Below, one piece after another: positions 16,175 through 27,075 of a stretch of 33,037 nucleotides of DNA (positions are counted from its first letter, which is position 1; every line of letters begins with the position of its first letter). The position numbers and the translations under genes are program-made. Below the pieces are notes generated by a model. It saw nothing but the letters and a program-made list of their open reading frames with translations. It ran no database searches and was not told the DNA's origin. This stretch comes from Candidatus Woesearchaeota archaeon (GTDB lineage Archaea; Nanobdellota; Nanobdellia; Woesearchaeales; GCA-2687795), in assembly GCA_002687795.1 (NCBI GenBank), contig NZBG01000012.1, positions 1 through 33,037 on the forward strand, given 5' to 3'.

Positions 16175-17134
16175 ATGGATAAAAAACTATTATCTTTAAC
16201 ATTATTAACAGCATTAATATTGATTGTTGGTTGCGCGGAGGAGGCTCAAGAAACAAGCTCAGCTTCTCCCTTTTTAGGGGGCACTAAAGGCATTGTTGCT
16301 GAATTTCAGGACATGGGCATAAGGAACGAGAGAACAGGCCAGAACGAGATATATGAAGGAGAAACCTTCCCGATTGAGATTCTTGTTTGGAACAAAGGCG
16401 AGGATGATGTTGAACCAAGTAATCTTCTGGTTTCTTTAATGGGAATTAATCTTCCTGATTTTGATAATATAACTGGCGAAAATGATCCAAATGTTGAGGA
16501 AGGTGCTTTATCTAATATCGCAAAAATTGAAAGGATTTCTGAATTTAACCCAGAGGGCGGAGAAATACCCCTTAATTTCATTGAATCTGACGCAGATGGC
16601 GCTAACTATACTATCAATTTAACAGGCTCCAGCTATAATGTTAACCTGTTTGCATCTGTTGTTTATAATTATACAACCTATGTGGCTGTGCCAAAGCTGT
16701 GTTATAACGGCGACCCTGCAAACACTGATATCTGTGTTGTTGATGAAGAAAAGGATGTTTTCTCATCTGCTGCGCCTATCCAGGTGAAAAAGGCAGAGGA
16801 AAAGAGAGCAGGTTCAGGTATTATAGCTGTTGAATTTGATGTAGAAAATGTTGGCAGCGGAAAGGTAACAAAACAGGGAGAAGGCTTTGACAACAGATAT
16901 GATCAGTTCGAATTTAAAATGCCAGACGCTACTGAAGCAGCAAACTGGGCTTGCACATCAGGCGGCAACACTGATTGGGGAAGACTTGACAAGAGCGGTA
17001 AAGCAAAGATCAGATGCAAGAGGAATACGCAGATACAAAAGAATGATGCAGTCTACACAAGAGAGTTTGGCTTAGAGATAAAGTATAAATACAAAGATAT
17101 TATACAGGACTCTGTGAGAATCTTGAAGAGCTAA
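16175..17134 (+). CDS. Lipoprotein of unknown function
   Basis: Signal peptide with lipobox (LTALILIVGCAEE); SD AGGAGG upstream of ATG 16175; beta-rich body. Confidence 0.7.
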   Translation: MDKKLLSLTLLTALILIVGCAEEAQETSSASPFLGGTKGIVAEFQDMGIRNERTGQNEIYEGETFPIEILVWNKGEDDVEPSNLLVSLMGINLPDFDNITGENDPNVEEGALSNIAKIERISEFNPEGGEIPLNFIESDADGANYTINLTGSSYNVNLFASVVYNYTTYVAVPKLCYNGDPANTDICVVDEEKDVFSSAAPIQVKKAEEKRAGSGIIAVEFDVENVGSGKVTKQGEGFDNRYDQFEFKMPDATEAANWACTSGGNTDWGRLDKSGKAKIRCKRNTQIQKNDAVYTREFGLEIKYKYKDIIQDSVRILKS

Positions 17135-17209
17135 GAACTCTTTTTTATTATTTTCTTTTTTTCTATTTCTGATATTGTAAACAATTTCTTGTAGGATATG
17201 TTCTTCGCG

Positions 17210-17387
17210 GATTTGCTCAGCCCTGCTCTCTGAGCAGGGTTCTTTTTTCTCCCCCTCGGAAATCAAGGGGGAGAAAAAATAAGTCTGGCAGGTAAGTTAA
17301 ATTTGCGAAGTCCCAGAGGGACACCAGAAACACGAAGTGTTTCTCAGTGCAAATTTATGGCAACTTACCGCCAGACCTGAGCAAATC
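17210..17387. repeat. Nested multi-arm inverted repeat (candidate structured ncRNA or cruciform element)
   Basis: GATTTGCTCAG(17210-17220)/CTGAGCAAATC(17377-17387); CCCTGCTC-TCT-GAGCAGGG; TTTTTTCTCCCCCT/AGGGGGAGAAAAAA; GTCTGGC/GCCAGAC; GGTAAGTT/AACTTACC; AAATTTGC/GCAAATTT; GTCCC-AGA-GGGAC; AGAAACAC-GAA-GTGTTTCT. Confidence 0.85.
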
Positions 17388-17425
17388 TACAGCACTAACT
17401 AGGCGATATACACCTTAACTTAGAA

Positions 17426-18382
17426 TTATTTTATATTTACCAACACAACCTGGCTTAGCAACGCTTCCAGCTGTATGAACTCATCAGAGCCCTCAGTCAT
17501 CCTGAACTCTGCCTCACCGCACTTATTAATAAGAAGCATCCTTTTCCTGTCATCAATCTCCAGGTTTAAGATTTCTGCCTGAATCTGCTTGATAATATCC
17601 AGGCCGGAAAGCCCATACTCCAGCATAACATTCAGCAGCTTCTCCCTTGCCTGGCTAAACTTATTCTCCAATGCCAGCCTCAACACCTCATTAACCTCTT
17701 TCGGCTTTGCAACAGAAGCTAATGAATATACTATCTCTTCATTAACCTCTTTGCCAAGCGCTGCGCAGCTTTGCATTATATTTTCCAGTCTTCTGCAGTC
17801 GCCGTTGCTAACCTCAAACAATGCCAGCTTTGCTTTCTCATCAATAACAAGGCCTTCTTCTTTTGATATCTTCTCAGTTATAACGGAAATATCCTCTTTC
17901 TTAAGAGGCTTGAACTTAAAAACAGCGCACCTGCTCTGTATAGGATCAACAATCTTGCTGCTCCAGTTGCAGCTTAAAATAAATCTGGTAGTCTTAGTAT
18001 AATTCTCCATTGTTCTCCTTAAAGCCTGCTGAGCCTCCCTTGTCAGTGCATCAGCTTCATCAAGAAATATTATCTTAAAGGGAACATCCCCTATAGCCCT
18101 TGTTCTTGCAAAATCCTTTACTTGGTTTCTTACAGTATCTATCCCTCTTGAATCAGATGCATTAAGCTCAAGAAAATTCTGCCCCCAGCTATCTCCAAAC
18201 AGTTTCTTTGCCACAACTATGGATAAGCTTGACTTGCCAACCCCTGCCGGCCCGGAAAACATCAGATGAGGCATATTCTTCTGCTCAACAAACGCCTTTA
18301 CTTTGCTAACTATATCATCCTGACCCTTAATATCAGAGAAATCATTAGGCCTGTACTTTTCTGTCCAGATAGCGTTTGCCAT
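17426..18382 (-). CDS. rfcS: Replication factor C small subunit (clamp loader)
   Basis: WTEKYRPNDFSDIKGQ, GPAGVGKSS (Walker A), IIFLDEADALT (Walker B), QSRCAVFKF. Confidence 0.93.
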   Translation of the reverse strand: MANAIWTEKYRPNDFSDIKGQDDIVSKVKAFVEQKNMPHLMFSGPAGVGKSSLSIVVAKKLFGDSWGQNFLELNASDSRGIDTVRNQVKDFARTRAIGDVPFKIIFLDEADALTREAQQALRRTMENYTKTTRFILSCNWSSKIVDPIQSRCAVFKFKPLKKEDISVITEKISKEEGLVIDEKAKLALFEVSNGDCRRLENIMQSCAALGKEVNEEIVYSLASVAKPKEVNEVLRLALENKFSQAREKLLNVMLEYGLSGLDIIKQIQAEILNLEIDDRKRMLLINKCGEAEFRMTEGSDEFIQLEALLSQVVLVNIK

Positions 18383-25537: not shown

Positions 25538-25735
25538 TTTATTATATTATAAGGAAACAAAGAAATTCTTGTCTCCAGTATAGGAAAGTTAATTACAACC
25601 TGCCTATCTCTTGATTATTATAAGAAAGGCTGGCTTATTTATAAAGATTTTGGTTGGGTTACAGTCCAGGGCAATAAACTTTATATACCACTCAATAATC
25701 CCATTTATCATAACAAAACAAGGGAGATGATCATA

Positions 25736-25999
25736 ATGAAAAAACAAGTTGAAGAGCACAAGTTTGGAGATTTATTTCAAGGGAGGGTACACGTATTTGA
25801 TGGTTTTCCGTTTCCTTTAACGGGAGGAGAGTATGTGCTGATGCATTCTGGCTTACCAGCACCTTGTTTAGAGCAAAGATGCGACGAGCATCCTAATAAC
25901 AACAGAACCGGTTCTGCTGCTGTGATGCGCCAGAGAGGATGCGACGCTAAACCCAGTGAATATTGCAAAAGGCCTTACCTACACAGGTATGGGAAATAA
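25736..25999 (+). CDS. Small Cys-containing protein of unknown function, tandem paralog 1
   Basis: FGDLFxxxVxVFDGFPFPLTGGEYVLMHSGLPAPCLEQRCDEH; ATG 25736 follows AGGGAG. Shares the core with the downstream ORF. Confidence 0.6.
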   Translation: MKKQVEEHKFGDLFQGRVHVFDGFPFPLTGGEYVLMHSGLPAPCLEQRCDEHPNNNRTGSAAVMRQRGCDAKPSEYCKRPYLHRYGK

Positions 26000-26004
26000 T
26001 CACA

Positions 26005-26238
26005 ATGAAAGAACCAGAGCCAAGATTCGGAGATTTGTTTAAGGAGTATGTATGCGTATTTAATGGATTTCCGTTTTCTTTAACAGGAGGAGAGTATGTA
26101 CTGATGTATTCTAGCTTATCAGCACCTTGTTTAGAGCAAAGATGCGACAGACATTTTAATGATAGTAAAGGCTGCTCTGCTGTTAATGATAAAAACATTT
26201 CAAAGGGCGTGAAGCGCCAGGGCTGGTATAGAAAATAA
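26005..26238 (+). CDS. Small Cys-containing protein of unknown function, tandem paralog 2
   Basis: MKEPEPRFGDLFKEYVCVFNGFPFSLTGGEYVLMYSSLSAPCLEQRCDRH; high nucleotide similarity to paralog 1 in the core. Confidence 0.6.
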   Translation: MKEPEPRFGDLFKEYVCVFNGFPFSLTGGEYVLMYSSLSAPCLEQRCDRHFNDSKGCSAVNDKNISKGVKRQGWYRK

Positions 26239-26853: not shown

Positions 26854-26893
26854 AAGCGATGCGAGAAAACATAAAATAGCCCTGTCAGGATTC
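26854..26893. repeat. Direct repeat copy A (tRNA 3'-end duplication)
   Basis: AAGCGATGCGAGAAAACATAAAATAGCCCTGTCAGGATTC, 39/40 identical to 26968-27007. Confidence 0.9.
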
Positions 26894-26967
26894 CCACATA
26901 AGGGTTTCACCCTTATCAACCCGTGGTCTATCACTCACTTCGTTCGTGATAGCCCGACTTGGTTACG

Positions 26968-27007
26968 AAGCGATACGAGAAAACATAAAATAGCCCTGTC
27001 AGGATTC
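26968..27007. repeat. Direct repeat copy B (contains tRNA 3' end)
   Basis: AAGCGATACGAGAAAACATAAAATAGCCCTGTCAGGATTC. Confidence 0.9.
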
Positions 27008-27075
27008 GAACCTGAGTCGCAAGGTCCAGGGCCTTATGCTTAAATTTGCATGCTTGACCACTACACTACAGGGCT
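26991..27075 (-). tRNA. tRNA-Gln-like (apparent CTG anticodon) with about 12-nt insertion in the anticodon stem
   Basis: Minus strand AGCCCTG...CAGGGCT acceptor, D-arm GTGTAGTGGTCAAGCATGC, T-arm TCAGG-TTCGAAT-CCTGA, anticodon arm (GC)AAGG-CCCTGGA-CCTTG(C) once 12 nt are removed; 85 nt total versus 73 expected. Confidence 0.65.

Follow-up and report, generated by a model that had tools for sequence, protein, structure and literature searches.

A probable composite of two mobile palindromic elements, one nested within the other, in a Woesearchaeales genome

Several kinds of palindromic and inverted-repeat elements have been described. Prokaryotic miniature inverted-repeat transposable elements (MITEs) have been reviewed (PMC10969869), and the archaeal list in the accessible part of that review names no DPANN archaea. 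Nested palindromes are known from organelles, in the form of short palindromic repeats in the mitochondria and plastids of Volvox carteri (PMC2670323), and hairpin-forming elements, including a double-hairpin element, are described from mitochondria (e.g., PMC2800124). Palindromic repeats of the REP/BIME type serve as targets for the insertion sequences IS1397, ISKpn1, and IS621 (PMC1525189). Here, we describe a 178-nt palindromic structure at 17210-17387 of a window from a Candidatus Woesearchaeota archaeon, the window being the whole stretch of 33,037 nucleotides that was analysed (contig NZBG01000012.1, assembly GCA_002687795.1). We refer to the window's own genome, in which it is contig 12 of an assembly that is 76% complete, as G000. 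With a probability of roughly 0.86, the structure combines two MITE-like mobile palindromic elements, both non-autonomous, termed type 1 and type 2.

These elements resemble prokaryotic MITEs in being short, non-coding, multi-copy, and intergenic, in their very stable predicted folds, and, in the genomes that preserve them best, in having inverted repeats together with direct repeats of 7-9 bp (PMC10969869). They differ from MITEs in having a conserved cloverleaf core whose stems change completely yet stay paired, and a second palindrome nested in an arm; in addition, their source transposon was not identified. Type 2 resembles the mitochondrial double-hairpin element. However, the Volvox and mitochondrial elements belong to organelle genomes and consist of shorter units, and the transposon-like ends and 8-9 bp duplications of type 1 in Woesearchaeales are not described for them in the accessible parts of PMC2670323 and PMC2800124. 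What is shared with the REP/BIME targets is a mobile element that inserts specifically into palindromic repeats (PMC1525189), but here the insert is a small palindrome instead of a gene-bearing insertion sequence, there is no REP-like array, and no Y1 transposase gene was found in G000.

A preliminary description, made from the sequence alone, had listed a set of nested helices and proposed a new structured non-coding RNA (ncRNA) or cruciform element. Inspection of the sequence placed every one of these helices where it had been reported. RNAfold likewise recovered the structure from both strands, at minimum free energies of -97.3 and -103 kcal/mol (z -9.5 and -10.9); shuffled sequences averaged -51.7 and -54.8 kcal/mol, and 0 of 200 shuffles matched the folding energy. 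The parts of the structure are as follows.

17210..17387, plus strand: type-1 'cloverleaf' palindromic element, split by the type-2 insert (RNAfold; uninterrupted homologous copies; covariance model R2).
17210..17220, plus strand: outer helix (11 bp), 5' side, GATTTGCTCAG, with small changes relative to the C8 and C9 copies.
17377..17387, plus strand: outer helix, 3' side, CTGAGCAAATC, identical in the C8 and C9 copies.
17221..17239, plus strand: arm 1 (8 bp), CCCTGCTC-TCT-GAGCAGGG; the C9 copy has CCCCTATCC..GGATAGGGG instead, with pairing retained.
17243..17279, plus strand: arm 2 (14 bp), TTTTTTCTCCCCCT..AGGGGGAGAAAAAA, the most sequence-conserved arm of type 1 in the alignment, with T-runs on both strands.
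17283..17289, plus strand: arm 3 host stem, 5' side, GTCTGGC.
17370..17376, plus strand: arm 3 host stem, 3' side, GCCAGAC (C8/C9 comparison).
17290..17369, plus strand: type-2 double-hairpin palindromic element, nested in the arm-3 loop (separate copies elsewhere).
17291-17298/17362-17369, plus strand: arm 3 inner helix, GGTAAGTT/AACTTACC.
17299-17306/17349-17356, plus strand: arm 3 inner helix, AAATTTGC/GCAAATTT.
17310..17322, plus strand: type-2 hairpin 1 (triloop), GTCCC-AGA-GGGAC, 94% paired in the alignment (shuffled, 80%).
17326..17344, plus strand: type-2 hairpin 2 (triloop), AGAAACAC-GAA-GTGTTTCT, with conserved ACC and CAGT flanks, 99% paired in the alignment (shuffled, 82%).

The composite make-up becomes apparent by comparison with other copies in G000. 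A search of this genome returned two close type-1 copies, C8:9272-9366 and C9:3288-3383, plus partial matches elsewhere. Both copies have the outer helix and the first two arms, together with the base of the third, but in them arm 3 is just GTCTGGC-AAC-GCCAGAC. In the window, ~80 nt (17290-17369) take the place of the AAC loop; without the insert, the site would read GTCTGGCAACGCCAGAC. The type-2 double hairpin occurs alone at C25:10515 and C5:1102 of G000, and it is separately present in the related genomes G190, G014, and G111, among others. Since arm 3 is empty in the C8 and C9 copies and type 2 is found on its own, the 178-bp structure is two elements, one within the other: a type-1 cloverleaf palindrome with a type-2 double-hairpin palindrome nested in its arm-3 loop. 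Another palindrome in G000 presents the same picture. Its two copies, at C5:1102 and C8:13328, carry type-2 units in different hairpins, and the hairpin occupied in one copy is insert-free in the other; as with arm 3 of the window set beside C8 and C9, a palindrome within a palindrome is seen in both occupied and empty forms.

Relatives show that such elements behave as mobile DNA. Type 1 occupies ~45 places in G128, where its core is enclosed in a ~204-bp element bounded by terminal inverted repeats of 15 bp (GGCTCTGTAGAAAAT); the end pattern has 92 matches in the genome, against 0 for a backwards control. Copies of 326-536 bp have the same ends and further palindromes inside their arms. Target duplications of 9 bp match at 8 or 9 of 9 positions in 13 of the 19 copies measured, whereas 0 of 342 mismatched flank pairings reach 8 matches. 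An inverted repeat accompanied by an 8-bp direct repeat also occurs at C6 of G000 (GGCTGTGATGCAAC; AAAATTAG), in G065 (GGCCATGTAGAAAT; GCATTAAT), and in G143 (TGAGCCTG), a combination present in 0.1% of mismatched flank pairs used as control.

The window site itself can be compared with the sister genome G001, in which rnfC, the lipoprotein gene, and rfcS are syntenic. The two genes flanking the structure converge, as first described, with the lipoprotein stop at 17134 and the rfcS stop at 17426. The gap between them is ~13 nt in G001 and 291 nt in the window. The G001 junction reads CTCTTTTTTTATTTTATATT without interruption, and in the window CTCTTTTTTATTATTTT and ATTATTTTATATT flank the insert, for which the following features are proposed.

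17147..17154, unstranded: candidate left target-site duplication, ATTATTTT (8 bp), a direct repeat with 17425-17432, at the G001 junction.
17155..17424, unstranded: putative inserted segment of 270 bp, missing between the same genes in G001 and without a long open reading frame.
17425..17432, unstranded: candidate right target-site duplication, ATTATTTT, overlapping the rfcS stop codon.

The difference between the two genomes thus fits a 270-bp insert with an 8-bp ATTATTTT duplication. The duplication is probable, not proven, since in DNA this AT-rich an 8-bp repeat can arise by chance, as it does in ~15% of mismatched flank pairs, and clear inverted repeats are lacking at the window copy. This AT-rich setting weighs against a mobile composite, and so do some further points. 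A flank test found no clear terminal inverted repeat at the ends of the window copy (17155-17424), although such repeats are seen in relatives and at C6 of G000. The C8 and C9 type-1 copies show no target duplication (for C8, the far flank is different in G001, which offers no clean empty site). Searches for an autonomous partner were negative: an IS1595-type transposase is absent from 11 carriers and a Y1 transposase from G000 (76% complete) and G128, other DDE families not being searched. Finally, the very strong pairing of type 1 would also fit a selected RNA.

Both Y1 and IS1595 transposases were considered as partners and rejected, as they were not found where needed, and by inspection no obvious kilobase-scale pair of ends was present among the 92 in G128. 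A Y1 enzyme deserves separate consideration, because the structure could also be read as a REP/REPIN or IS200/IS605-type palindrome that a Y1 (RAYT/TnpA) transposase moves in single-stranded form. The strong hairpins would suit this explanation, as would the lack of target duplications at the C8 and C9 copies and at the type-2 insert, and Y1 transposases do exist in G001, G190, G014, G043, and G143. However, no such gene turned up in the two type-1-rich genomes, G000 (76% complete) and G128, and G128, G065, G143, and C6 of G000 combine inverted repeats with 8-9 bp target duplications, which to our knowledge is not a feature of Y1 transposition. We therefore regard movement by Y1 as unlikely for the structure as a whole, although type 2 may still move in this way.

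Wider searches relied on covariance models, R1 for type 2 and R2 for type 1, because DNA similarity alone gave mostly chance matches above E ~1e-3. The seeds were hand-trimmed to equal length and the alignments thus lean towards structure; free folding of individual copies mostly yields the same shape. Pairing was scored over 42 distinct type-1 copies. It reaches 93-96% in the four helices (outer helix, 95%); after shuffling, the outer helix (50%) and arms 1 and 3 reach 50-60%, and arm 2, whose sequence is better conserved, reaches 80%. The figures lean towards pairing, since the alignment was fitted to the structure. Outside arm 2, most pairs occur as 3-4 Watson-Crick types each, and arm 1 is swapped wholesale between the C8 and C9 copies. 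In type 2, the junction letters (AA, ACC, CAGT) and the triloops are conserved.

Such covariation, in which a pair may take as many as all four Watson-Crick types, is what one would look for in a functional structured RNA or RNA-gene family that had spread in the genome with its fold kept by selection and was expressed as a putative minus-strand transcript. The conserved type-2 junction letters and triloops and the extreme predicted stability of the 178-nt fold on both strands agree with an RNA as well. However, template switching during replication is able to form perfect stems and to restore them, and it can suffice on its own to make and maintain them (PMC8794818). Its action would be expected in mobile palindromic DNA in particular. 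The covariation check suggested in the preliminary description gave a very strong signal for type 1, but one that template switching in palindromic DNA predicts too. Selection on folded transposing DNA and template-switch repair cannot be separated as causes of the strong pairing.

A search of Rfam with the 178-nt structure at gathering and relaxed thresholds gave no meaningful match to a known family. The minus-strand TATA-like sequence proposed as a promoter, TGTATATC, is present but not distinctive; the octamer occurs 2 times and TATAT 79 times in the window. Because there is no Rfam family, no fixed gene context, and no distinctive TATA sequence, an ncRNA is disfavoured. The inverted repeats and target duplications of relatives, the sister species without the element at the same site, and the patchy occurrence of the two types (in 11 and 34 of 196 genomes) point the same way, and we consider a functional RNA improbable. 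Of the two possibilities first raised, the cruciform or mobile palindrome is the one supported, by the copies, the inverted repeats and duplications in relatives, the absence from the sister species, and the nesting, whereas the ncRNA gained no positive support. The early description had itself named scattered REP- or MITE-like copies as a sign against an ncRNA, and copies are found both in G000 and across the order. No host function is shown for the element.

In the Woesearchaeales sample, R2 matches the 11 genomes at, for example, 5 loci in G000 and ~14 loci in G128, and R1 matches the 34 genomes with 16 matches in G190, 8 in G014, and up to 7 in G000. With stricter thresholds, a phylum-wide sample gave R2 in 15 and R1 in 11 of 380 genomes, nearly all of them in the same order. 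A genome-wide pattern scan of GTDB returned a sole match, the Woesearchaeota genome JACPII, and a plasmid search for the element gave none. The sites of 33 type-1 copies are varied: 11 lie between divergent genes, 10 between co-directional genes, and 7 inside a predicted short open reading frame. Only 5 lie between convergent genes, which speaks against a transcription terminator or a bidirectional mRNA 3'-end structure. Despite the T-runs on both strands of arm 2 and the convergent position of the window copy and a few others, such a 3'-end signal is very improbable, as the same two genes end normally in G001 without the element.

For the composite of mobile palindromes, the following course of events may be envisaged. 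A transposase acting in trans would have brought a type-1 element, through cut-and-paste or copying, to its site between the lipoprotein gene and rfcS. A type-2 element would later have inserted into the exposed arm-3 loop, possibly while this was in a single-stranded state or formed an extruded hairpin. That the stems change and yet pair perfectly could reflect template-switch correction of quasi-palindromes, selection for foldability of the transposing DNA, or both. A broader and so far speculative idea, which we hold only tentatively, is that Woesearchaeales carry structure-defined mobile elements whose identity would lie not in their sequence but in the folded single-stranded shape (a cloverleaf core, or a double hairpin with fixed junction letters), and which would prefer each other's hairpin loops and so build ever larger nested palindromes.

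Some further repeats and insertions were observed. The G128 loci L180-L191 (326-536 bp) contain different nested palindromic families, including repeated GGCGAGTTTTGG and ATTTTCTTTTCCTTCC hairpins, in a hierarchy of nested elements. At the G190 loci L121-L128 and L133, the type-2 unit is continued by chains of hairpins (AGAAACGC..GCGTTTCT, CTCTGGGC..GCCCAGAG), which make up compound palindromic arrays with the common left start TGTCAAAAACACC. In G001 (C38:3431-5980, L201), rfcS is split by an intein-like in-frame sequence of ~1.57 kb (854-aa open frame), which the window rfcS does not have. Elsewhere in the window, a tRNA gene lies at 26991-27075 (minus strand), and a stretch of 49 bp that overlaps its 3' end has a second copy, 90% identical, 114 bp away (26854-26902 and 26968-27075); a fragment of a tRNA or the scar of an old integration might look like this. 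Two 187-nt direct repeats, 76% identical, lie 263 bp apart at 25733-26182.

Within open-access papers, no literature on such elements in Woesearchaeota was found; what is new here is the archaeal family, with its cloverleaf core and stem turnover. Small-genome DPANN archaea hold abundant compound palindromes of shared architecture. These elements are a natural case in which to ask whether covariation can arise from DNA mobility and template switching without RNA function, a question that bears on the use of covariation to call new ncRNAs. The presence of occupied and empty arms within one genome also makes loop-targeted insertion directly testable.
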